Source: an uncultured Eubacterium sp.
GTDB taxonomy: Bacteria; Bacillota_A; Clostridia; Lachnospirales; Lachnospiraceae
Direction: 5' to 3'
DNA: 14,869 nucleotides
Assembly: GCA_948560485.1 (NCBI GenBank)
Contig: CAOXUF010000026.1
Span: 1-14,869, forward strand
In this document: positions 2,751 through 14,668 of the stretch, piece after piece
Numbering within the stretch: position 1 is the first letter of the stretch
Layout of the letters: every line of letters starts with the position of its first letter
The notes under the pieces: model-generated
What the model saw: the letters and a program-made list of their open reading frames with translations, nothing else
Told to the model about the DNA's origin: nothing
Database searches by the model: none
Position numbers and translations under genes: made by a program

Positions 2751-3194
2751 CCTACGCTTCACATCGCCGTCTTTGGTTCCCCTTACCATCTCATGTTCGA
2801 AAAAGGATTTGGTATAGGGAAAAATGTGGTCATGCTTGTGGAGGCCGTAAAGGCGTTCTGTGTAGCTTTTCAGCTCGTCCCGGGAAATTCCGGAATGAAT
2901 ATGGTCCGGACGCTTTTGGGGGTCTTAGGCGGCGTAATCACATCCCTGTTGCCTATACGCTGGAAGGATTTGTTGACGGTCAGGGAACAGTCCTTAAAAT
3001 TAATGTCCCCATATTCCAAGGCAAGCAGTTCCCCGGTACGCAGCCCGGTATAATACAGGGTAAGGAATCCGGCCCTTGCCTTCACGCTGGAATTTAAAAC
3101 CACGCTTCTTTTTCTGCTTTTGTGCTCCGGTGTAGTCTGTGTAGTAAAATTTACAGAACCACGTTCCGGTTTTCTGGTCTTTATATGCTGGCAT
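2751..3194 (-). pseudogene. int: Tn916/Tn1549-type tyrosine recombinase (integrase), broken
   Basis: The gene starts well, with ATG at 3192-3194 behind AAAGGAG, and encodes MPAYKDQKTGTWFCKFYYTD..QKKKRGFK, the N-terminal arm-binding domain of conjugative-transposon integrases. Around 3085 the frame jumps. The core-binding domain is missing and a second frame carries FLTLYYTGLRTGELLALEYG, which includes the first catalytic arginine, then continues to SVRTIFIPEF. Near 2883 one base appears to be lost, and a third frame continues RDELKSYTERLYGLHKHDHI through GTKDGDVKR. The gene then stops at the IS256 right end, so the C-terminal H-x-x-R and tyrosine catalytic region is absent. Three lesions (internal deletion, 1-base frameshift, IS truncation) make it inactive. 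In intact elements this enzyme inserts and excises an integrative conjugative element, so the region is likely a relic of one. Confidence 0.88.
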
Positions 3195-3340
3195 GTCAAT
3201 ATTCTCCTTTCATCCGGCTGGGGCGGGCGTGAGATGGCTGGAAGGATGATTGACATATTTTCATAAACTGATATAATAGATTTAACAGGACAGCCAGAAG
3301 GTGAGCGCGATTCACCCGACCCGGCGAATAGATTTAACTA

Positions 3341-4120: not shown

Positions 4121-4149
4121 TTGCTATTGTTCCGATAGTGGAATATAAT
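4121..4149 (+). promoter_or_regulatory. Sigma-70/SigA-type promoter of the restriction operon
   Basis: TTGCTA (4121-4126) and a perfect TATAAT (4144-4149) have the ideal 17-bp spacing. They lie 25 bases before the first start codon, with GGGAGG between. TGCTAT (4122-4127) and ATAGCA (4152-4157) form a 6-bp dyad around the -10 box, a possible operator for the small DNA-binding protein encoded first. That last point is inference. No other promoter of this quality was seen within the operon. Confidence 0.7.
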
Positions 4150-4174: not shown

Positions 4175-4357
4175 ATGGAGTATTTAACAACTGTAGAAAT
4201 GTCAAAAAAATGGAATATTTCCTCCAGAAGAATAGGTGTTTTATGTACAGAGGGAAGAATTGAGGGCGCAGTTAAGAAGGGTAAAATGTGGCTTATCCCA
4301 GCAGATGCAGTTAAGCCGTTAGATGGAAGATTTAAGCAGAATAAAGCAGAGGAATAG
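4175..4357 (+). CDS. Small excisionase-like helix-turn-helix protein, first gene of the operon
   Basis: This 60-aa protein is mostly one DNA-binding domain. A helix-turn-helix at residues 4-25 (LTTVEMSKKWNISSRRIGVL) is followed by a short wing (EGRIEGAVKKGKMWLIPADA), the layout of MerR-like or excisionase-like mini-regulators. The KMWLIPADAVKP ending is typical of this group. The start at 4175 has GGGAGG (4161-4166) eight bases upstream. It is the first gene after the promoter and lies 60 bases before the helicase, so it most likely controls the operon's expression, as controller proteins do in some restriction systems. An excisionase role for the nearby integrase remnant is possible but less likely, given orientation and distance. 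Confidence 0.8.
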   Translation: MEYLTTVEMSKKWNISSRRIGVLCTEGRIEGAVKKGKMWLIPADAVKPLDGRFKQNKAEE

Positions 4358-4417
4358 ATTGCAGCCTCATAATTAGAGAAATAACCTACATTGACTACGA
4401 AAGAAGGTGTGGATTTG

Positions 4418-7400
4418 ATGGAGCTTATTGATAATGTCAATAAAACTTTAAAGGATGATTTGGCGGTTACTATCCATAATGATAGTAAAGTATCTATTGC
4501 TGCGGCTTGTTTTTCAATCTACGCATTTCAGGAGCTTAAGCGAGAATTGAAGAGTGTGGATGAGTTGCGTTTTATATTTACGTCGCCTACATTTATTAAG
4601 GAAAAGGCTGCAAAAGAGAAGAGAGAATTTTATATACCAAGACAGACAAGGGAGCGTAGTCTGTATGGTTCTGAGTTTGAAGTAAAACTTAGGAACGAAA
4701 TGATGCAGAGAGCCATTGCAAAGGAGTGTGCTGAATGGATTCGTAAGAAAGCCACATTTAAGTCAAATGTTACAAGTGAAAATATGATGGGCTTTATGAA
4801 TGTGGATTCCAATAGCTATATGCCGATTAATGGTTTTACCACTATTGATTTGGGATGTGAACGTGGTAATAATGCTTATTATCCAATACAGAAGACGGAT
4901 ACTCCAATGAGTCAGTTTTATTTGGATTTGTTTGAACAGATTTGGAATGATGAATCCAGACTTCAGGAAGTTACTGATGAAGTGATTGATAGTATCACAA
5001 CGGTATATAATGAAAATTCTCCCGATTATATTTATTTTGTGACCCTATATAATATCTTTAATGAATTTTTGGAGGATGTATCAGAAGATGTGTTGCCGAA
5101 TGAAGCAACAGGATTTAAAGATAGTAAAATATGGAATTTATTGTATAACTTTCAGAGAGATGCAGTATTAGCAATTATTAATAAATTGGAAAAGTATAAT
5201 GGATGTATTCTTGCGGATTCGGTAGGACTTGGTAAGACATTTACATCCTTGGCAGTTATTAAATATTATGAGAACCGCAATAAATCTGTTTTGGTATTAT
5301 GTCCAAAGAAGCTGGCAAATAACTGGAATACCTATAAGGATAACTATGTGAATAATCCCATAGATGCTGACAGAATGCGTTATGATGTTTTATTCCATAC
5401 TGACCTTAGCAGGGAAGATGGTACATCAAATGGATTGGATTTAGACCGATTGAATTGGGGTAATTATGATTTAGTAGTAATTGATGAGTCTCACAATTTT
5501 CGAAATGGTGGAAGAGTATCGCAGGATGGATATAAAGAAAACCGCTATTTAAAATTGTTAAACAAGGTAATTAGAAAAGGTGTAAAGACGAAGGTGTTAA
5601 TGCTTTCAGCTACACCGGTTAATAATAGATTTGTTGATTTGAAAAATCAGATAGCCCTTGCCTATGAAGGTGAGAGCAGTGTTTTAGATAGCAAGTTAAA
5701 TACCAGTAGGAGTATTGAAGATATTTTTAAGCAGGCTCAGGGAGCATTTAATGCATGGGGCAAGTTGGAACCACAGGACAGAACAACTGCAAGGTTGCTT
5801 AAAATGCTCGATTTTGATTTCTTTGAGTTGTTGGATAGTGTGACTATTGCAAGGTCACGAAAACATATTGAGAAATATTACGACACATCGGATATTGGAA
5901 CATTCCCTAAAAGAAATATTCCAATATCAAAAAGACCAGGGCTTACAGACCTTGATACTGCTATTAACTACAATGAAATTTTTGAACAACTTAGTATGTT
6001 GCAGTTGTGTATCTATACACCGACATTATTTATCTTACCGTCAAAGCTTGAAAAATATATGAGTAAGTATGACAGCAGACAGGTTAAGGGAGGTCTTACA
6101 CAGTCAGGTCGTGAGCAGGGTATCAGAAGACTTATGGCAACAAATTTGATGAAACGTATGGAAAGTTCTGTATATGCGTTCCGACTGACTTTGGTGCGAA
6201 TCAAGGATTATATCGATAAGACAATAGAGACAATTACAGAATTTGAAAATACATCCCATTCACAGAGCATGGTATTCAGTGATATAACCAATATTCAGGA
6301 AACAGAGTTTGATGGCGATGATATAAATGATGATGCTCTTGCAATTGGTAAGAAGGTTAAAATTGACCTTGCTGACATGGACTACAAAACATGGAAGCAT
6401 GAGCTGGAAAAGGATAAGGAAATCTTGGATTTGCTGGTGTGCATGATTGCGGATATAACGCCTGAACATGATAGTAAGTTACAGGAATTGTTTGATGTAG
6501 TTGATGAAAAACAGAAACATCCGATTAACGCCGGCAATAAGAAAATCATTATCTTTACAGCATTTGCAGATACCGCAGATTATTTGTTTGAGACAGTATC
6601 TGTTTATGCTAAGAAGAAATTCAGCTTAGACACGGCATTGATAACAGGCTCTGTAGATGGCAAAACAACTATTTCAGGTCTTAAGACAGATTTGAATACC
6701 GTGCTTACATGTTTCTCACCCATATCTAAAGGGAAGAATTTGCTCCTGCCGAATCATACCGATGAGATAGATATTTTGATTGCTACTGACTGTATTTCAG
6801 AAGGTCAGAATCTTCAGGATTGTGATTACTTGATTAACTATGATATTCATTGGAATCCGGTCAGGATTATACAGCGATTTGGACGAATTGACCGTATCGG
6901 TAGTAAAAATGAGTGCATTCAGCTTGTGAATTTTTGGCCGGACTTGACACTGGACGAGTATATTAATCTGAAAGCCAGAGTAGAAACGAGGATGAAGATT
7001 GTGGATATGACTGCAACTGGTGATGACAATGTATTAAGTCCGGAGGAAAAAGGTGACTTGGAATATCGGAAACAGCAGCTTAAGCGATTACAGGAAGAAG
7101 TGGTGGATATTGAAGAAATGTCTTCAGGAATATCTATTATGGACTTGGGATTAAATGAATTTCGTTTAGATTTGCTGGATTATATGAAAACACACCATGA
7201 TGTCGAGAATGCACCATATGGAATGAATGCAGTAGTAAAAGGCAATGATGAACTACCGCCTGGAGTTATCTTTGTTCTCCGTAATGTGAAGAATGAAATA
7301 AACATTAACAGTCAGAACCGATTGCATCCGTTCTATTTGGTTTATATGTCAGATGATGGAGAGGTGGTCATTGACCATTTATCACCGAAAGAAATGCTGG

Positions 7401-7720
7401 ATTCATTCAGATACCTTTGTAAAGGTAAAACAGATCCTGATAAAGTATTGTGTACGGCTTTTAATGAAGAGACACAGGATGGGCGGAATATGAGTAAGTA
7501 TTCTGAACTATTGGGGGATTCCATTGCATCTATCATAGAAGTAAAAGACGAGAATGAGATGGATCGTTTCTTAAGCGGTAAGCAAATGAGCTTTTTATCA
7601 GAAACCATAAATGGACTGGATGATTTTGAATTAATCAGCTTCTTGGTTATCAAGTCAAATACCCCGCTGCAAGCAACGGGGCATCAAATTTGTAGCGCTG
7701 CAGAGCAGCGGGGTATTTGA
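4418..7720 (+). CDS. SNF2-like superfamily 2 helicase/translocase
   Basis: Large ATPase expected to move along double-stranded DNA. With start ATG 4418 (AGAAGGTG at 4403-4410, about 7 bases upstream) it is 1100 aa. An in-frame TTG at 4391 has no ribosome binding site. Motif I is ADSVGLGKT (266-274), motif II DESH (356-359), motif III SATP (397-400), and motif VI QRFGRIDRIG (819-828) follows ATDCISEGQNL. The N-terminal 230 residues resemble the part seen in phospholipase-D-like helicases (VSIAAACFSIYAFQ) but show no HKD catalytic motif, and I see no nuclease motif elsewhere. The enzyme may therefore act as a motor or remodeller rather than a cutter. It precedes DUF4391, Mod and Res in one operon. 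The last 22 residues (from S1080) come from a palindromic repeat inserted at the gene's end, so its natural C-terminus has been replaced. Confidence 0.9.
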   Translation: MELIDNVNKTLKDDLAVTIHNDSKVSIAAACFSIYAFQELKRELKSVDELRFIFTSPTFIKEKAAKEKREFYIPRQTRERSLYGSEFEVKLRNEMMQRAIAKECAEWIRKKATFKSNVTSENMMGFMNVDSNSYMPINGFTTIDLGCERGNNAYYPIQKTDTPMSQFYLDLFEQIWNDESRLQEVTDEVIDSITTVYNENSPDYIYFVTLYNIFNEFLEDVSEDVLPNEATGFKDSKIWNLLYNFQRDAVLAIINKLEKYNGCILADSVGLGKTFTSLAVIKYYENRNKSVLVLCPKKLANNWNTYKDNYVNNPIDADRMRYDVLFHTDLSREDGTSNGLDLDRLNWGNYDLVVIDESHNFRNGGRVSQDGYKENRYLKLLNKVIRKGVKTKVLMLSATPVNNRFVDLKNQIALAYEGESSVLDSKLNTSRSIEDIFKQAQGAFNAWGKLEPQDRTTARLLKMLDFDFFELLDSVTIARSRKHIEKYYDTSDIGTFPKRNIPISKRPGLTDLDTAINYNEIFEQLSMLQLCIYTPTLFILPSKLEKYMSKYDSRQVKGGLTQSGREQGIRRLMATNLMKRMESSVYAFRLTLVRIKDYIDKTIETITEFENTSHSQSMVFSDITNIQETEFDGDDINDDALAIGKKVKIDLADMDYKTWKHELEKDKEILDLLVCMIADITPEHDSKLQELFDVVDEKQKHPINAGNKKIIIFTAFADTADYLFETVSVYAKKKFSLDTALITGSVDGKTTISGLKTDLNTVLTCFSPISKGKNLLLPNHTDEIDILIATDCISEGQNLQDCDYLINYDIHWNPVRIIQRFGRIDRIGSKNECIQLVNFWPDLTLDEYINLKARVETRMKIVDMTATGDDNVLSPEEKGDLEYRKQQLKRLQEEVVDIEEMSSGISIMDLGLNEFRLDLLDYMKTHHDVENAPYGMNAVVKGNDELPPGVIFVLRNVKNEININSQNRLHPFYLVYMSDDGEVVIDHLSPKEMLDSFRYLCKGKTDPDKVLCTAFNEETQDGRNMSKYSELLGDSIASIIEVKDENEMDRFLSGKQMSFLSETINGLDDFELISFLVIKSNTPLQATGHQICSAAEQRGI

Positions 7721-7780
7721 CCCTCGCGGCAGTCGCCAAATGTGCATGCAGGCATGCCCGTTTGGCTCGTTGCTCGCGGG
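7655..7780. repeat. Interspersed palindromic repeat at the helicase-DUF4391 junction
   Basis: There are two back-to-back inverted repeats. The first is perfect over 16 bp (TCAAATACCCCGCTGC at 7655-7670, mate at 7705-7720) and encloses a GC-rich core. The second is imperfect (about 7721-7749 against 7751-7780; CGCCAAATGTGCATGC faces GCATGCCCGTTTGGC). The DNA is far more GC-rich than the genes on either side, as expected for a mobile REP/BIME-like unit. I have an impression of similar GC-rich palindromes recurring in Lachnospiraceae genomes, unverified here. The unit carries the helicase stop codon (TGA 7718-7720). It could fold into strong RNA hairpins that affect the balance between the helicase and the downstream genes. 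Its exact outer limits are uncertain. Confidence 0.75.
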
Positions 7781-7812
7781 AATAAAAATAGCTGTAGAAT
7801 GAGAGGTTACAG

Positions 7813-8433
7813 ATGAGCGTACGTGGGTTGCCAAGCAGCACAGAAATAAGAAAACCGGTACATAAAAAAATACTCTATGCTAAATTTCCTATTGAATTGA
7901 GTGGCGAGAAAAGAAAACAATTTGATGATGATATTGGTAGAATTATTATAACGAATGAGATTTCGCCTGTATCAGTCAATATTAAAGAAGGTGAACAGGT
8001 CAAATCGATTTTTGTATTGCAAGTAGAGCTTAAGAATAAAGTGTACAATGAAAGAAACATTGTGCTTATAGCAAAATTGTTTGGACAGCATCTTTTAATA
8101 GTGCTGAAATATGCAGATGAAGTACAGTTTGCAACCTATCAGACAAGGTTGTTGCATTCTGAGTGGATGGAAGCAGATCATGCTTGTATTAAATTATCGG
8201 GGCTTGATTTAGATGCAGTCTGGGAGAATTTGGTTACACAAATATCGGGAATTGTAGTTACTGATGGGCATAGTCTGGACGAGCAGATAGTTATTGAGCA
8301 GGAGAAAGCTAAGCTGATGAAGCAGATAGAAGAGCTGGAGAAGAAAGCACGCAAGGAAACGCAGGCTAAGAAGAAATTTGAGATGTTCCAGAGACTGAAG
8401 GAATACCGGAAACGATTGGAGGAGATGAATTGA
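7813..8433 (+). CDS. DUF4391-family protein with C-terminal coiled coil
   Basis: This 206-aa cytoplasmic protein of unknown biochemical function matches the DUF4391 pattern as I remember it. The N-terminus is RGLPSSTEIRKPVHKKILY, the middle segment runs ..ISPVSVNIKEGEQVKSIFVLQVELKNK.., and then come LLIVLKYADEVQFATYQ and a conserved tryptophan (HSEWME). Residues about 155-206 are charged and helical (KLMKQIEELEKKARKETQAK..), a likely coiled coil for oligomerisation or for binding a partner. The ATG at 7813 follows GAGAGG (7801-7806). It lies between the SNF2-like helicase and the type III methylase, and from memory DUF4391 is often found beside such genes. It could be an adaptor linking the two motors. 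No catalytic motif is visible. Confidence 0.85.
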   Translation: MSVRGLPSSTEIRKPVHKKILYAKFPIELSGEKRKQFDDDIGRIIITNEISPVSVNIKEGEQVKSIFVLQVELKNKVYNERNIVLIAKLFGQHLLIVLKYADEVQFATYQTRLLHSEWMEADHACIKLSGLDLDAVWENLVTQISGIVVTDGHSLDEQIVIEQEKAKLMKQIEELEKKARKETQAKKKFEMFQRLKEYRKRLEEMN

Positions 8434-8570
8434 AGAAAAGTAAATATATTCTTATCAGTGTATGCTCTATCTGTGGTGCTTTAATTATCGCTTTTGTTGT
8501 TAATATTTTGTTTTTCTATGGTCATGAACTGAAAAACAGAAATGAAATACAAGTGTTAGGAGAAGAATAA
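8430..8570 (+). CDS. 46-aa single-pass membrane protein, TTG start
   Basis: The TTG at 8430-8432 overlaps the DUF4391 stop (TTGA) and has a near-perfect GGAGGAG (8418-8424) five bases upstream. The stop (8568-8570) is directly followed by the Mod ATG at 8571. The product begins MKKSKYILIS, has a hydrophobic stretch at residues 7-30 (VCSIC, ALIIAFVVNILFFY) and ends with a short charged tail (GHELKNRNEIQVLGEE). The positive N-terminus suggests either one transmembrane helix or an uncleaved signal anchor. The exact fit between two genes, good ribosome binding site and hydrophobic pattern make it a credible gene, although it is short and uses TTG. I know of no described family for it. A role tying the system to the membrane, or a toxin-like effector, is speculation. 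Confidence 0.72.
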   Translation: MKKSKYILISVCSICGALIIAFVVNILFFYGHELKNRNEIQVLGEE

Positions 8571-10502
8571 ATGGATAAGATGAAAATGCATACGAAGAAT
8601 ATGGCAGATGAGAATTATGCGGCATTAGCGAGATTGTTCCCGAATGCTTTAACTGAAACAATTGTTGGTTATGAGGAGGACGGAAAAGCTATTGTTGAAA
8701 GAGCTATTGATGTAGATGTGCTGAGACAAGAGATATCTTGTAGTGTTGTGGAAGGTAGAGAAGAGAGATACCAGTTTACATGGCCTGACAAGAAGAAGTC
8801 GGTTTTACTTGCTAATGCTCCAATCAACAAAACGCTTCGACCTTGCAGAGAGGAAAGCGTTGATTTTGACAATACCGAAAACCTTTATATTGAGGGTGAT
8901 AACCTTGAGGTTTTGAAGCTGTTGCAGGAAACATATCTCGGCAAAATTAAAATGATTTACATAGATCCTCCGTATAATACGGGGAATGATTTTGTCTATG
9001 AGGACGATTTTGCTCAAAGCACAGACGAATACATTGAAAACAGCGGACAATTTGATGAAGAAGGCAACCGCCTTGTAAAAAATCTTGACAGTAATGGTCG
9101 CTTTCACACAGATTGGCTGAATATGATATATCCAAGGCTGAAACTGGCGAAAGATTTATTGAGTGATGATGGGGTTATTTTTATTAGTATTGATGATAAC
9201 GAAATCGATTCATTAAAAAATATATGTAACGAGATTTTTGGCTTGCGTAATTTAGTCGCAGAGATTCCTTGGCAATCAAGAGCATCTATTCAAAATGATA
9301 CAGATTTCAGTGTAAATCACGAGTATATTTGTGTTTATGCCAAAAACAGAAGACAAGAAAACAGAAGATTAAAGGAAAGCAATTATGTTGAATGGCATAG
9401 TAAAGATAGTTTTGTTTGCAAACCGCTGTCATTAGATAAAAGTAAGTTTGATAATCCGGATAATGACCCAAGAGGACTTTGGAAAGCGGACCCATTTGAT
9501 GCTCCTAATCTCAGACCAAATCTTACATATACTGTTACAAATCCACTTACAGGGGAGCAGCACCTCCCTCCAAGAGGGAGGCACTGGAGAATTTCTGAAG
9601 ATAAATTCTCCAGTGCCTTGGCTGATGGAAGAATAATATTTGGAAAAAATGGAACTGGTCGTCCTCAAATGAAATCTTTTTATGAAGAAAAGAAAGAGTT
9701 TGGATCTATTGATAATTCGTGGTTTAGTGCAGAACGAGTAGGAACGACAACAAATGGCACGAAAGAAGTTATGAATTTATTTGATGGTAAGCCTTATTTT
9801 GATAAACCAAAGCCATCAACTTTGCTATTGAAACTTATTGATTTAGCTAATGTTAGTAGCGGAGAAATAATTCTCGACTTCTTCTCTGGTTCTGCAACCA
9901 CCGCCCATGCTGTTATGCAGCTGAACGTTGAAGACGGCGGAAACCGCAAGTTTATTATGGTGCAGTTGCCCGAAGAAACAGACGAAAAAAGTGAAGCAAA
10001 CAAAGCTGGATACCAAAATATCTGTGAAATTGGCAGGGAGCGTATTCGTCGTGCCGCTAAGAAAATTGCTGATGAAAATTCCGAAGCAAAATTTGACAGT
10101 GGTTTTCGTGTACTGAAATGCGACACCTCCAACATGAAAGACGTCTACTACAATCCATCTCAAATGGAACAGCAGACATTATTTGCTTCTACTGATAACA
10201 TCAAAGAAGACCGTACACCGGAAGATTTATTATTTCAGGTAATGTTAGATTTAGGTGTCCTGCTTTCAAGTAAAATCGAAGAAAAGGTAATTGCAGGTAA
10301 AAAGGTATTTAATGTAGCAGAAGGATTTTTAATTGCATGTTTTGATAGTGATATTACGGAAGAGACGGTAAAAGCGGTAGCACAGGAGAAGCCTTATTAT
10401 GCAGTATTCCGAGACAGCAGTATGGCAAATGATAGTGTTGCGACAAATTTTGAGCAGATATTTGCCACCTACAGTCCTGGGACAGTAAGGAAGGTGCTGT
10501 AA
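8571..10502 (+). CDS. mod: Type III restriction-modification DNA methyltransferase (Mod)
   Basis: This 643-aa enzyme transfers a methyl group from S-adenosylmethionine to adenine N6 in the recognition site, which it also specifies for the complex with Res. The catalytic motif DPPY lies at residues 132-135 (YIDPPYNTGNDF), and the SAM-binding motif DFFSGSATT comes later, at 436-444. This DPPY-first order defines the beta class to which type III Mod enzymes belong. The stretch between (about 200-410) should be the target recognition domain. It contains the conserved LPPRGRHWRIS and is visibly richer in A+T (about 30% GC by hand count at 9181-9420) than the flanking catalytic parts (about 38% and 46%), a sign of domain exchange. 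AGGAGA (8558-8563) precedes the ATG by 7 bases. No simple-sequence tract for phase variation is present. Confidence 0.95.
   Translation: MDKMKMHTKNMADENYAALARLFPNALTETIVGYEEDGKAIVERAIDVDVLRQEISCSVVEGREERYQFTWPDKKKSVLLANAPINKTLRPCREESVDFDNTENLYIEGDNLEVLKLLQETYLGKIKMIYIDPPYNTGNDFVYEDDFAQSTDEYIENSGQFDEEGNRLVKNLDSNGRFHTDWLNMIYPRLKLAKDLLSDDGVIFISIDDNEIDSLKNICNEIFGLRNLVAEIPWQSRASIQNDTDFSVNHEYICVYAKNRRQENRRLKESNYVEWHSKDSFVCKPLSLDKSKFDNPDNDPRGLWKADPFDAPNLRPNLTYTVTNPLTGEQHLPPRGRHWRISEDKFSSALADGRIIFGKNGTGRPQMKSFYEEKKEFGSIDNSWFSAERVGTTTNGTKEVMNLFDGKPYFDKPKPSTLLLKLIDLANVSSGEIILDFFSGSATTAHAVMQLNVEDGGNRKFIMVQLPEETDEKSEANKAGYQNICEIGRERIRRAAKKIADENSEAKFDSGFRVLKCDTSNMKDVYYNPSQMEQQTLFASTDNIKEDRTPEDLLFQVMLDLGVLLSSKIEEKVIAGKKVFNVAEGFLIACFDSDITEETVKAVAQEKPYYAVFRDSSMANDSVATNFEQIFATYSPGTVRKVL
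9563..9615. repeat. Two consecutive perfect inverted repeats inside mod
   Basis: CCTCCCTC (9563-9570) and GAGGGAGG (9574-9581) have a 3-base loop. They are followed at once by CACTGGAGAATTT (9582-9594) and AAATTCTCCAGTG (9603-9615), a perfect 13-bp repeat with an 8-base loop. The stretch encodes the conserved LPPRGRHWRIS part of Mod and the residues just after it. In mRNA these would form two stacked hairpins in the middle of the target-recognition part. Chance is possible for each, but a 13-bp exact dyad next to an 8-bp one is unusual in coding DNA. Confidence 0.6.
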
Positions 10503-11527
10503 TGAGTAAAAAATATGAAATATCTGAGCTTGGAGATATGCTCATATATCAGAATGAAAAAGGTGATACCAGGGTAGATGTGTATTTTTTTGAATCTGAT
10601 GTATGGATGAGCCAGGCGGCTATTGCTCAGATGTATAACACAACACCACAAAACATAACCATGCATATCAAAAACATTTATAAAGATGGTGAGCTGGATG
10701 AAAATTCAACTTGTAAGGAATTCTTACAAGTTCAAACAGAAGGTACAAGACAGATAAAGCGTAAAAAAAAACATTATAATTTCCGTATGATTTTGGCAAT
10801 CGGTTACAGAGTGCGTTCTAATGTTGGTATTCATTTCAGAAACTGGGCATCCGGGATATTGGAAGAATACACCAGAAAAGGTTTTGCAATGAATGATGAA
10901 CGTCTCAAGAATCCGAAACAGTTTGGCGAGGATTATTTTGATGAACTGTTAGATAGAATCCGTGAAATCCGTGCCTCGGAAAAACGATTCTATCAGAAGA
11001 TATGCGATATTTATAAAACATCCATTGATTACAGTAGTAATGATGAAGAAGCCAAGTTATTTTTTAAGACAGTGCAGAATAAAATCCATTACGGTGTACA
11101 TGGACATACAGCTGCTGAATTGATTATGAAAAGAGTGGATGCATCCAAGGATAATATGGGATTAACTGTATTTGAGGGCGCTAAAGTTCGCAAAAAGGAT
11201 GTGGATATTGCCAAGAATTATCTGAATGAAGAGGAGATGACAGAGCTTAACCGGGTGGTTGCTATGTATCTTGATTTTGCAGAGGATCAGGCAAGAAGAC
11301 ATATTCCGATGTATATGAAAGACTGGGAAGGAAAGCTGAATGCTTTCTTGAATATGACCGGACGTGAAGTATTATCAGGTGCAGGGCATGTGTCTGCAGA
11401 ACAGGCAAAGAAGTATGCTTTAGAGCAATATGCGTTATATGATAAGTATAGATTACAACAGCACGAGGAATCGGTTGTAGATGATTTGGTGCAGAGTGCA
11501 GAGGATATTAAAAAACAAAAGAAGTAG
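10502..11527 (+). CDS. RhuM-family protein lying between mod and res
   Basis: This 341-aa protein matches the RhuM family, first named for a Salmonella pathogenicity-island gene of unclear function. The N-terminal part has a helix-turn-helix-like segment (WMSQAAIAQMYNTTPQNITMHI, about 35-56). It is followed by the family signature AIGYRVRSNVGIHFRNWAS (99-117), a helical middle, and HGHTAAELI (200-208). Its ATG overlaps the mod stop by one base (TAATG at 10500-10504), with AAGGAAGG (10487-10494) upstream, so translation is coupled to Mod. RhuM genes are often found embedded in restriction loci, from general knowledge. The helix-turn-helix suggests DNA binding, perhaps regulation of Res or a toxin-like role. 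There are no strong catalytic clues. Confidence 0.88.
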   Translation: MSKKYEISELGDMLIYQNEKGDTRVDVYFFESDVWMSQAAIAQMYNTTPQNITMHIKNIYKDGELDENSTCKEFLQVQTEGTRQIKRKKKHYNFRMILAIGYRVRSNVGIHFRNWASGILEEYTRKGFAMNDERLKNPKQFGEDYFDELLDRIREIRASEKRFYQKICDIYKTSIDYSSNDEEAKLFFKTVQNKIHYGVHGHTAAELIMKRVDASKDNMGLTVFEGAKVRKKDVDIAKNYLNEEEMTELNRVVAMYLDFAEDQARRHIPMYMKDWEGKLNAFLNMTGREVLSGAGHVSAEQAKKYALEQYALYDKYRLQQHEESVVDDLVQSAEDIKKQKK

Positions 11528-11539
11528 GAGGTGTTCGTT

Positions 11540-14500
11540 TTGAAGTTTAATTTTAAAATTCAACAGTATCAGACGGATGCCGCCCGCAGTGTGGTTGGAG
11601 TGTTCCAGGGACAGCCTTATTCCGATCCTGTAAATTATAGAAGGGATATTGGTAAGGGAAAGGGTGGCGTTTCTTATTCTCAGATGTCTTTTGCAGATTC
11701 TATGTATGAACAGCAGGAATTGGCACTGACAGATGATTATGATGATGCAGGTTTTAAGAACGAGATAGTAGCATTATCTGATGCAGTATTGCTTTCTAAT
11801 ATTCGAGAGATTCAACAGAATAATAATGTGAAGATTTCTGAAAAGTTAGTAAATAATCTGGGCAGATGTTCCCTTGATGTGGAGATGGAAACAGGTACAG
11901 GTAAAACATATGTGTATATTAAGACCATGTATGAGCTGAATAAGCATTACGGTTGGTCTAAGTTTATTGTGGTTGTACCATCTGTTGCAATTAGAGAAGG
12001 TGTAAAGAAATCCTTTGAAATTACTCAGGAGCATTTTATGGAGCAGTATGGGAAAAAAGTTCGCTTCTTTGTATATAACAGTAGTAATCTGAATCAGCTG
12101 GATGCTTTTTCCAGCAACTCAGGTATCAATGTTATGATTATTAATATGCAGGCTTTTAATACATCCATGAAAGAAGGCGGCAAGAGCAAGGAAGCACGTA
12201 TTATCTACGATAAAAGAGATGAGTTCGGAAGTAGAAGGCCAATAGATGTAATTAAAGCGAATAATCCGATTATTATTTTGGATGAGCCACAGAAGATGGG
12301 CGGAGATGCAACACAGAAAGCATTACAGAATTTTAATCCTTTGTTTTGTTTGAATTATTCAGCAACCCATAAGGAACATCATAATTTGATATATGCATTG
12401 GATGCGGTAGATGCATACAATCAGAGATTAGTTAAGAGGATTGAAGTAAAGGGCTTTCAGGTCAAGAACTTCCGTGGTACGGACAAGTATCTGTATCTGG
12501 AGAGTATTATTGTATCGCCCAAGCATCCGCCAAGAGCACGCATTGAGTTCGAGGTGAAGTACGATAAATCCATTAATCGGGAAATGAGAATCCTGAGTGT
12601 TGATGATAATTTGTATGAATTATCCAAGAACATGGAGCAGTATAGAGGATATCGTATTTCAGAGATTGACCCAATAGCAGGTTCTGTGACTTTTACTAAT
12701 GGAGAAGTCATTCATAAAGGTGATGTGGTTGGTGATATTTCCGAAAAGGATATGAGAAGAATCCAGATTCGAGAGACTATTATTTCCCATATGGAGAAGG
12801 AAGAAGAACTTTTTAATAGGGGCATTAAAACCCTGTCACTATTTTTTATTGATGAAGTTGCTAAGTATCGTGCATATGATGAGGAAGGTACAGAATTGCT
12901 TGGGGAGTATGGACAGATGTTCGAGGAAGAATATCATGATGTGGTAAATGCTTATATTACACTCTTTGACACGCCTTATCAAAAATATTTAAAAAGTATT
13001 GGAGTAGAAGATACCCATAAGGGCTACTTTAGCATTGATAAGAAAGGCCGTGTGGTAAACAGTAGTATTAAACGAGGTTCCGATTTTTCGGATGATATTT
13101 CGGCTTATGATTTGATTTTGAAAAACAAGGAAAGATTGCTTAGTTTTGCTGAACCTACACGATTCATATTCTCACATTCAGCACTTAGAGAAGGTTGGGA
13201 CAATCCGAATGTATTCCAGATTTGTACCTTAAAACATAGTGACAGCGCCACAATGAAGCGGCAGGAGGTTGGACGTGGACTTCGTTTGTGCGTAAATCAG
13301 GATGGCTTCAGAATGGACGAGCAGAGTCTCGGTAAAGATTTAGTACATAAGGTAAATAGGCTTACAGTTGTTGCCAATGAGAGTTATAAAGAATTTGTGA
13401 CAGATTTACAGAGACAGATTAAAGAGGTTCTGTATGACAGACCCACAAAGGCATCCAAGGAATACTTTGTCGGTAAGACAGTACAAGTGGATGGTATTCC
13501 ACAGAAGATTTCTGACCGGCAGGCTACTGCCATTTACAGATATTTGCTTAAGAATGATTATATTGATGACAATGAGCATATTACAGACCAGTATAGAGCT
13601 GATTTGGACAATAATGCTTTGGCACCGCTTGCGGACGAATTAAAACCGATATCAGAGGGTATCCATAAGCTGATTCAGAGCATCTTCAATGATAAGATAC
13701 TTGAGGATATGATTGGTAATGGTAATGAAACCACAGTACCAAGCAATGATTTAAATGAGAATTTTGCAAAGAAGGAATTTCAGACATTATGGAATTATAT
13801 CAATCACAAATATGCTTATACCGTTGATTTTGATAGTATTGAGCTTATCAGAAAGTCAATAGAGCAGATTGATAGGGGGTTATTTGTATCTCAGTTGCAA
13901 TATACGGTATCGAAATCGGAGCAGAGGGATGTAATGGATGTTAATATGGTAAGGGAAAGCAATTCTTTCTATGAGGCAAAATCCAGCACTACAACATTGA
14001 AGCATTCCGAAACCAGTCAGATTAAATATGACCTGATTGGTAAGATTGCAGAGGGTACAGTGCTTACCAGAAAGACAGTTGCTGCTATTTTACAGGGTAT
14101 CAGTCCGATTAAGTTCGCTATGTTTCAGTATAATCCGGAAGAATTTATTACAAAGGTTATTAGGCTTATCAAAGAGCAGAAAGCAACCATGATTGTGGAA
14201 CATATTTCTTATGACCAAATTGAAGGGACTTATGATAGTTCCATTTTTACGGCAGAGAAACATGCAAGTTTTGATAAGGCTTATAGGGCAGAAAAACATA
14301 TTCAGGATTATGTATTTACAGATGGTACGGCTGAAAAGAGTGTGGAGCGGAAGTTTGCAGAAGAATTGGACGGGGCAAAAGAAGTATGTGTATATGCTAA
14401 GTTACCGAAGGGATTTGCCATTCCAACCCCTGTAGGCAGTTATTCACCTGACTGGGCCATTGCATTTTATGATGGTACGGTTAAGCATATTTACTTTATA

Positions 14501-14668
14501 GCAGAGACCAAAGGCACTATGGAGAGTCTGGAGCTTAGACCGATAGAAAAAGCAAAAATTTCTTGCGCAAGAAAGCTGTTTAATGAGATTTCCACAGAGA
14601 ATGTGGTGTATCATGATGTGGATAGTTATCAGAGTCTGCTTAATATTATGAATAGTATTGAGAAGTGA
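11540..14668 (+). CDS. res: Type III restriction enzyme subunit (Res): helicase plus PD-(D/E)XK nuclease
   Basis: The best start is TTG 11540, six bases after AGGAGGTG (11526-11533), giving MKFNFKIQQYQTDA as in homologues and 1042 aa. The GTG at 11531 lies inside the ribosome binding site. Superfamily 2 motifs are METGTGKT (116-123), DEPQ (248-251), SAT (274-276), ALREGWDNPNVFQ, and QEVGRGLR (575-582). The C-terminal nuclease shows SPDW with D971, then E989-T-K991 (AETKG), a complete PD-(D/E)XK site. In type III systems Res pairs with Mod, uses ATP to move or signal along DNA, and cuts about 25-27 bp from the recognition site when two unmethylated sites are suitably arranged. All motifs are intact, so restriction should work. 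The gene follows the RhuM gene by 12 bases, and its ribosome binding site overlaps the upstream stop. Confidence 0.95.
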   Translation: MKFNFKIQQYQTDAARSVVGVFQGQPYSDPVNYRRDIGKGKGGVSYSQMSFADSMYEQQELALTDDYDDAGFKNEIVALSDAVLLSNIREIQQNNNVKISEKLVNNLGRCSLDVEMETGTGKTYVYIKTMYELNKHYGWSKFIVVVPSVAIREGVKKSFEITQEHFMEQYGKKVRFFVYNSSNLNQLDAFSSNSGINVMIINMQAFNTSMKEGGKSKEARIIYDKRDEFGSRRPIDVIKANNPIIILDEPQKMGGDATQKALQNFNPLFCLNYSATHKEHHNLIYALDAVDAYNQRLVKRIEVKGFQVKNFRGTDKYLYLESIIVSPKHPPRARIEFEVKYDKSINREMRILSVDDNLYELSKNMEQYRGYRISEIDPIAGSVTFTNGEVIHKGDVVGDISEKDMRRIQIRETIISHMEKEEELFNRGIKTLSLFFIDEVAKYRAYDEEGTELLGEYGQMFEEEYHDVVNAYITLFDTPYQKYLKSIGVEDTHKGYFSIDKKGRVVNSSIKRGSDFSDDISAYDLILKNKERLLSFAEPTRFIFSHSALREGWDNPNVFQICTLKHSDSATMKRQEVGRGLRLCVNQDGFRMDEQSLGKDLVHKVNRLTVVANESYKEFVTDLQRQIKEVLYDRPTKASKEYFVGKTVQVDGIPQKISDRQATAIYRYLLKNDYIDDNEHITDQYRADLDNNALAPLADELKPISEGIHKLIQSIFNDKILEDMIGNGNETTVPSNDLNENFAKKEFQTLWNYINHKYAYTVDFDSIELIRKSIEQIDRGLFVSQLQYTVSKSEQRDVMDVNMVRESNSFYEAKSSTTTLKHSETSQIKYDLIGKIAEGTVLTRKTVAAILQGISPIKFAMFQYNPEEFITKVIRLIKEQKATMIVEHISYDQIEGTYDSSIFTAEKHASFDKAYRAEKHIQDYVFTDGTAEKSVERKFAEELDGAKEVCVYAKLPKGFAIPTPVGSYSPDWAIAFYDGTVKHIYFIAETKGTMESLELRPIEKAKISCARKLFNEISTENVVYHDVDSYQSLLNIMNSIEK

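Follow-up and report, generated by a model that had tools for sequence, protein, structure and literature searches.

SNF2-type helicase and DUF4391 genes accompany type III Mod and Res genes in an uncultured Eubacterium sp. and in other bacteria

The window, a stretch of 14,869 nucleotides from an uncultured Eubacterium sp. of the Lachnospiraceae (contig CAOXUF010000026.1), encodes on its + strand a small helix-turn-helix (HTH) protein, an SNF2-type helicase, a DUF4391 protein, a hydrophobic peptide, the methyltransferase Mod, a RhuM family protein and the restriction subunit Res, and all seven reading frames are confirmed. A first-pass annotation, made from the sequence alone, had read these genes as one enlarged type III restriction operon. 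The conserved unit is smaller than this seven-gene operon. It consists of the SNF2 helicase, DUF4391, Mod and Res genes, whose order and shared strand recur in many phyla and also on plasmids.

The type III core, which had been proposed from complete Mod and Res motifs, is confirmed by the catalytic motifs and by matches to the PADLOC families MTase_III and REase_III. Mod (8571–10502, + strand), the third core component, is a type III N6-adenine methyltransferase (N6_N4_Mtase; MTase_III, 794 bits) in which DPPY at 132 precedes the S-adenosylmethionine (SAM) motif FFSGS at 437; the variable part of the Escherichia coli Mod proteins falls between these positions. Res (11531–14668, + strand), the fourth component, combines an SF2 motor with a C-terminal PD-(D/E)XK nuclease (motifs TGTGKT, DEPQ, SPDWA and ETKG; ResIII and RE_endonuc; REase_III, 980 bits) and lies near Mod, with the RhuM gene intervening in the window.

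The first core component is the SNF2-family helicase (4418–7720, + strand), with the motifs GLGKT, DESH, SAT and QRFGRIDR. Its open reading frame (ORF) is listed from TTG 4391; most aligned relatives begin at or near Met 4418, and from this alignment ATG 4418 is the more likely start. The N-terminus has a phospholipase-D (PLD) fold, but the HKD catalytic residues (HxK...GSxN) are missing at the aligned place in all 64 aligned helicase N-termini (a subset thinned at 85% identity; L178 has HxR), and a loose HxK...GSxN pattern is found in just one of 81 full helicases (L016), away from the aligned place. The domain thus appears to be a nuclease fold without evident cutting activity, so that the earlier description of a motor with no visible nuclease holds for catalysis and not for the fold, which is present with its catalytic residues gone. 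The C-terminus of the window helicase is about 20 residues longer than the end in 16 of the 17 other alignment rows; the seventeenth, P0035 (1219 aa), combines a helicase, with 97% identity across 84% of the query, with a Res-like C-terminal nuclease part, and arose either through a deletion that fused the two genes or as an artefact of assembly.

The second core component is the DUF4391 protein (7813–8433, + strand; PF14335, 116.8 bits). Its predicted structure (pLDDT 95.3) has an alpha/beta globular domain followed by a C-terminal helical hairpin, at the turn of which lie the near-invariant residues E182 and Q184. The fold has no significant match in the PDB and viral structure libraries, three DUF4391 proteins have no match in the PADLOC families, and in the open-access literature searched DUF4391 is mentioned in one paper, in a table of domain enrichments. 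Over 58 loci, DUF4391 has the lowest mean identity of the four proteins (30%, with 61% for the helicase, 46% for Mod and 51% for Res).

Conservation of the four-gene unit

Of 571 helicase relatives confirmed in one-per-species genomes, the 80 best were kept as a helicase-based sample, which favours near relatives. Its loci span Bacillota, Bacteroidota, Pseudomonadota, Spirochaetota, Verrucomicrobiota, Synergistota, Fibrobacterota and others, and downstream of the helicase DUF4391 is present in 78/80, Mod in 70/80 and Res in 64/80; by inspection, each locus missing one of these lies less than 2 kb from a contig end.

The DUF4391-based sample is less biased, and comprises 894 genomes (299 Bacillota, 299 Pseudomonadota and 296 Bacteroidota), although each phylum sample contains a centre genome (G001, G008, G004) picked for having the system. 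PF14335 is found in 25/299 Bacillota, 19/299 Pseudomonadota and 19/296 Bacteroidota genomes (17/296 above the cut-off), with 75 matches in total, of which 60 are full-length (at least 180 profile positions) and 15 are partial and counted apart. Helicase sequence lies upstream on the same strand of 55 of the 60 full-length genes, the other five having fewer than 170 bases of contig upstream, and this becomes 52 of 57 when the three centre genomes are excluded. One of the positives, L114, retains just the 59 C-terminal residues of the helicase, which continue in frame into a RhuM piece at the contig edge. Mod is within 1.5 kb of 51 of the 60, with none within that distance for six and a contig edge for three. 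Random occurrence of DUF4391 and the SNF2-like helicase relative to type III genes, which would have refuted the first-pass annotation, is not what this neighbourhood comparison shows, and the annotation's statement that the cluster holds more than classical type III needs is upheld by a helicase and a DUF4391 gene that accompany Mod-Res across phyla.

Textbook type III systems have two genes, and such loci could be ordinary type III pairs with passenger neighbours, the extra genes having no joint function. Same-family Mod-Res pairs do occur without the extra genes, and the membrane peptide and the HTH protein may plausibly be passengers. For the helicase and DUF4391, a gene order and strand that hardly any assessable locus departs from in any phylum argue strongly against passenger status, and the correlated divergence of the core proteins also speaks against it; we regard this explanation as highly improbable.

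Several observations weigh against a functional four-gene unit. The 15 partial DUF4391 matches include five with a helicase, four without, three at contig edges and three that our own profile does not recognise (L149–L151), and in the Bacteroidota loci L146, L147, L148 and L155 a partial DUF4391 gene has no helicase upstream, with Mod downstream in three of the four; these are either remnants or a shortened variant. Among 45 Bacillota-sample Res genes of the same PADLOC family (from 48 rows, three being second pieces; at most two candidates were scored per genome, for Res and for the C3a139 helicase family), DUF4391 by our reading lies within 10 kb of 23, on another contig for two, and in neither position for 20. 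None of the 15 loci fetched from these 20 unlinked Res genes contains DUF4391; five have weak helicase-profile matches of 32–121 bits (L160, L162, L163, L166 and L171), and contig ends truncate three (L161, L164 and L165), whose Res genes may in fact be linked. A Res tree, built by a quick method with the 15 unlinked rows, needs eight changes of the linked/unlinked label, versus 14.0 in shuffles. The helicase-DUF4391 pair is thus not required by every Res of this family, and the distance correlation among core proteins, which has no control gene for comparison, could stem in part from common descent. Because DUF4391 is nearly always found with helicase and Mod, while many Res genes are without DUF4391, the pair seems to depend on Mod-Res and not vice versa. 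These findings suggest that the two-gene picture of type III defences is incomplete; if a widespread branch has four genes, many loci counted as plain type III are mis-described.

Interchangeable genes, specificity and mobility

In 40 of 65 complete loci, the window included, the core contains additional ORFs on the same strand that are at least 85 aa long; 25 loci have none. These ORFs were called mechanically, with second Mod copies and pieces of Mod or Res excluded; tandem pairs of Mod genes are present within single loci in L003 and L010. The gap between Mod and Res is occupied in 27 loci, that between DUF4391 and Mod in 26, and that between helicase and DUF4391 in nine. A Pfam scan of 30 of the 75 cargo ORFs gave 16 matches above the curated cut-off, six only below it and eight ORFs with no match, and those above include Fic, Schlafen/AlbA, Abi_C, Abi_2, the YhcG nuclease, PDDEXK_3, GmrSD_N, AAA_13 (which we take to be PrrC-like), AAA_21 and DUF4238. 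The slot genes fit exchangeable backup effectors, each of putative function.

The RhuM gene (10502–11527, + strand; PF13310, 368.5 bits against a cut-off of 33.7; PADLOC PDC-S05) sits in the Mod-Res slot, as it does in 5/65 complete loci (the window, L004, L016, L041 and L064), and in L063 it is upstream of the helicase. The RhuM-like piece of L114 (2223–2564) has 55% identity to the window RhuM over 40 residues. RhuM has been proposed as a toxin in restriction-modification neighbourhoods, on the basis of gene neighbourhoods, in the available text of PMC3710099, and from its distribution here it looks like an interchangeable accessory, possibly a backup toxin. Of the accessory genes that had been grouped into one operon, the helicase and DUF4391 genes belong to the conserved core; RhuM (5/65) and the HTH gene (2/81) look interchangeable.

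The plasmid-borne operon L109 is matched in 10 of 5,426 complete E. coli genomes, its own record included, and in nine of these over at least 80% of its length. Four E. coli copies (L109 and L179–L181) are 98.6–99.5% identical in the helicase, 91–99% in DUF4391 and 99.6–99.9% in Res; their Mod proteins are 62–72% identical, with only 14–40% at residues about 250–400. The recognition domain of a type III Mod lies between DPPY and the SAM motif, at this variable region, and it therefore seems that recognition was exchanged and the other parts were left as they were; to judge from this pattern, helicase and DUF4391 would serve any specificity.

A helicase relative (E <= 1e-50) is present in 109 of 72,556 plasmid records, and all four genes are present in the two plasmid loci opened from these records, L109 and L110, and in L111, the record of Erysipelothrix phage phi1605. 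In L110, two genes separate DUF4391 from Mod, one annotated as an ATP-dependent endonuclease and the other a DUF2130 gene. The four genes of L111 are between annotated recombinases, in a stretch that also has annotated macrolide efflux genes, and its DUF4391 gene (74 bits with our own profile) is annotated as a chemotaxis protein.

Toxicity on establishment is a concern for plasmids and other mobile DNA, and the occurrence of the system there would suit a control module, in which helicase and DUF4391 act as a remodeller that takes Mod-Res off unmodified self DNA or holds it in check there, for instance when the system has entered a new host, and so limits self-damage. SNF2 proteins often evict bound proteins, and a helicase without a catalytic nuclease is in keeping with such a role; against it, many Mod-Res pairs exist without helicase and DUF4391, and HTH or WYL genes that could exert control are present in several loci, and we find the explanation quite unlikely.

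Possible mechanism and relation to known systems

The window proteins resemble EcoP15I in both subunits, with a Res match at E 7.5e-67 (best stretch 67–687) and a Mod match at 1.4e-66, and another solved Mod, 6k0w, matches at 9.5e-78. They differ from the classical type III enzymes (EcoP1I and EcoP15I, Mod2Res) in that two conserved subunits are added, one of them a second ATP motor, and in gaps that hold extra effectors. In EcoP15I, sliding is triggered by ATP and cleavage requires two inverted sites, according to the available part of PMC4490356.

We propose, with moderate confidence, a type III variant of four subunits, in which DUF4391 would dock a translocase whose nuclease domain is dead, this motor would aid restriction by Mod-Res, and swappable slots would hold backup effectors. 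By analogy with EcoP15I, Mod would recognise and methylate the site and Res would cut. DUF4391 may be an adaptor that docks the helicase onto Mod-Res, perhaps via its helical hairpin, and the helicase would be a real double-stranded DNA translocase gripping DNA by the dead nuclease domain. It could drive communication between sites or clear bound proteins, making cleavage faster or less reliant on two inverted sites, and the gap genes, RhuM in the window, would be exchangeable backup toxins for blocked restriction. If a four-gene branch of type III is indeed widespread, a motor of debated role in type III gains a partner and DUF4391 (PF14335) its first testable role; tests are feasible in laboratory E. 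coli, because E. coli genomes carry operon matches.

The best structural match is SauUSI, an ATP-dependent nuclease in which a PLD fold at the N-terminus is likewise joined to an SF2 helicase; the window protein differs in having no HKD and an SNF2-type motor, and in lying beside a methylase and a separate nuclease. BREX-related type-2 systems contain an HKD + SNF2 helicase, an N6 methylase, DUF499 and DUF3780, as given in the available text of PMC12839542. As far as that text goes, the window has in common a PLD-SNF2 helicase that is accompanied by an adenine methylase and by auxiliary effectors, and differs in its type III Mod and Res and in a nuclease fold without HKD; neither DUF499 nor DUF3780 has a match in a Pfam scan of eight window ORFs, which places the cluster outside this type. 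The resemblance to DISARM lies in a DrmD match of 153 bits, far under the NCBIfam DrmD cut-off of 610 and outside membership, and neither DrmB nor DrmC is among the matches of six scanned ORFs (the best 25 of 41 families for the helicase), where the similarity is of helicase type only.

The PADLOC screening that the first-pass annotation had suggested gives matches for Mod, Res, RhuM (PDC-S05) and the helicase, which matches C3a139 'HKD+Snf2' over its whole length with 446 bits. The best C3a139 match in the Bacillota sample (1263 bits) is in L175, which has the same four-gene order; C3a139 is a protein family label only, and the HKD of the label is not conserved in the aligned N-termini.

These likenesses bear on another explanation, that helicase and DUF4391 form a parallel effector, which would use the Mod mark to tell self from non-self and attack DNA without Res, like DISARM, BREX-related and SauUSI-type helicases. 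The helicase profile resembles the DrmD, PLD_Helicase and BrxH motors, and the architecture is SauUSI-like with a methylase encoded next door; the loss of HKD in every aligned N-terminus, however, leaves no evident cutting activity, and Res is also present wherever contigs extend far enough, so that we judge a parallel effector fairly improbable.

A bolder form of the four-subunit proposal, which we consider somewhat unlikely, is a class of two-motor restriction enzymes. Mod-Res, the SNF2 translocase with its retired nuclease and the DUF4391 adaptor would then be one machine that breaks the rule of two inverted sites and diffusive sliding, for example by cutting at a single site or in any orientation, with plug-in suicide effectors triggered by blocked cutting. 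No description of the four-gene system was found among the open-access papers listed in the searches, two of the lists being limited to 20 papers; in a Cronobacter element, type III genes and an SNF2 helicase are both listed among the cargo (PMC12757443).

Expression signals and neighbouring genes

The cluster begins with the small HTH protein (4175–4357, + strand), whose HTH_17 match (25.3 bits) is below the Pfam cut-off of 27. The gene is present in 2/81 loci, since besides the window only L062 has a relative ahead of its helicase gene, and it is likely a local regulator that is not conserved. The enterobacterial plasmid copies L110, L179 and L180 have a WYL-domain gene before the helicase in its place, incomplete in L179 and L180.

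The hydrophobic peptide of 46 aa (8430–8570, + strand) has a TTG start and overlaps the DUF4391 stop. It has no relatives in the 80 loci (phmmer E <= 1), and about 5.8 billion proteins searched gave five matches. It is lineage-specific and probably outside the system, and the membrane sensing layer that the first-pass annotation had suggested from it and from the extra motor is unsupported.

The shared strand that had been claimed for the cluster stands, and so does the tight spacing, except for a gap of 92 bp between helicase and DUF4391. Two adjacent hairpins, at 7654–7721 (17-bp perfect stem) and 7723–7780, occupy the 3' end of the helicase gene and this gap; the pair (7654–7780) has a folding z of -6.18, with equal stability in 0/200 shuffles. 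It resembles a small palindromic insertion, one that could influence expression within the operon, and the region has partial matches (77–81%) in two faecal phage records. A promoter-like site with a 10/12 match lies at 4121–4149; such sites are not enriched in the window (29 observed versus a mean of 38.4 in shuffles), and the single promoter claimed for the cluster genes is plausible but putative.

The sequence before 4000 is unlike the cluster, with a GC content of up to 0.51 versus 0.34–0.40 inside it. It encodes a MerR-type regulator with a TipAS antibiotic-recognition domain (218–1066) and an IS256-family transposase (1445–2659, - strand), so that mobile DNA adjoins the cluster, and a frame beside the transposase (2870–3256) reads, by eye only, as a piece of a tyrosine integrase.
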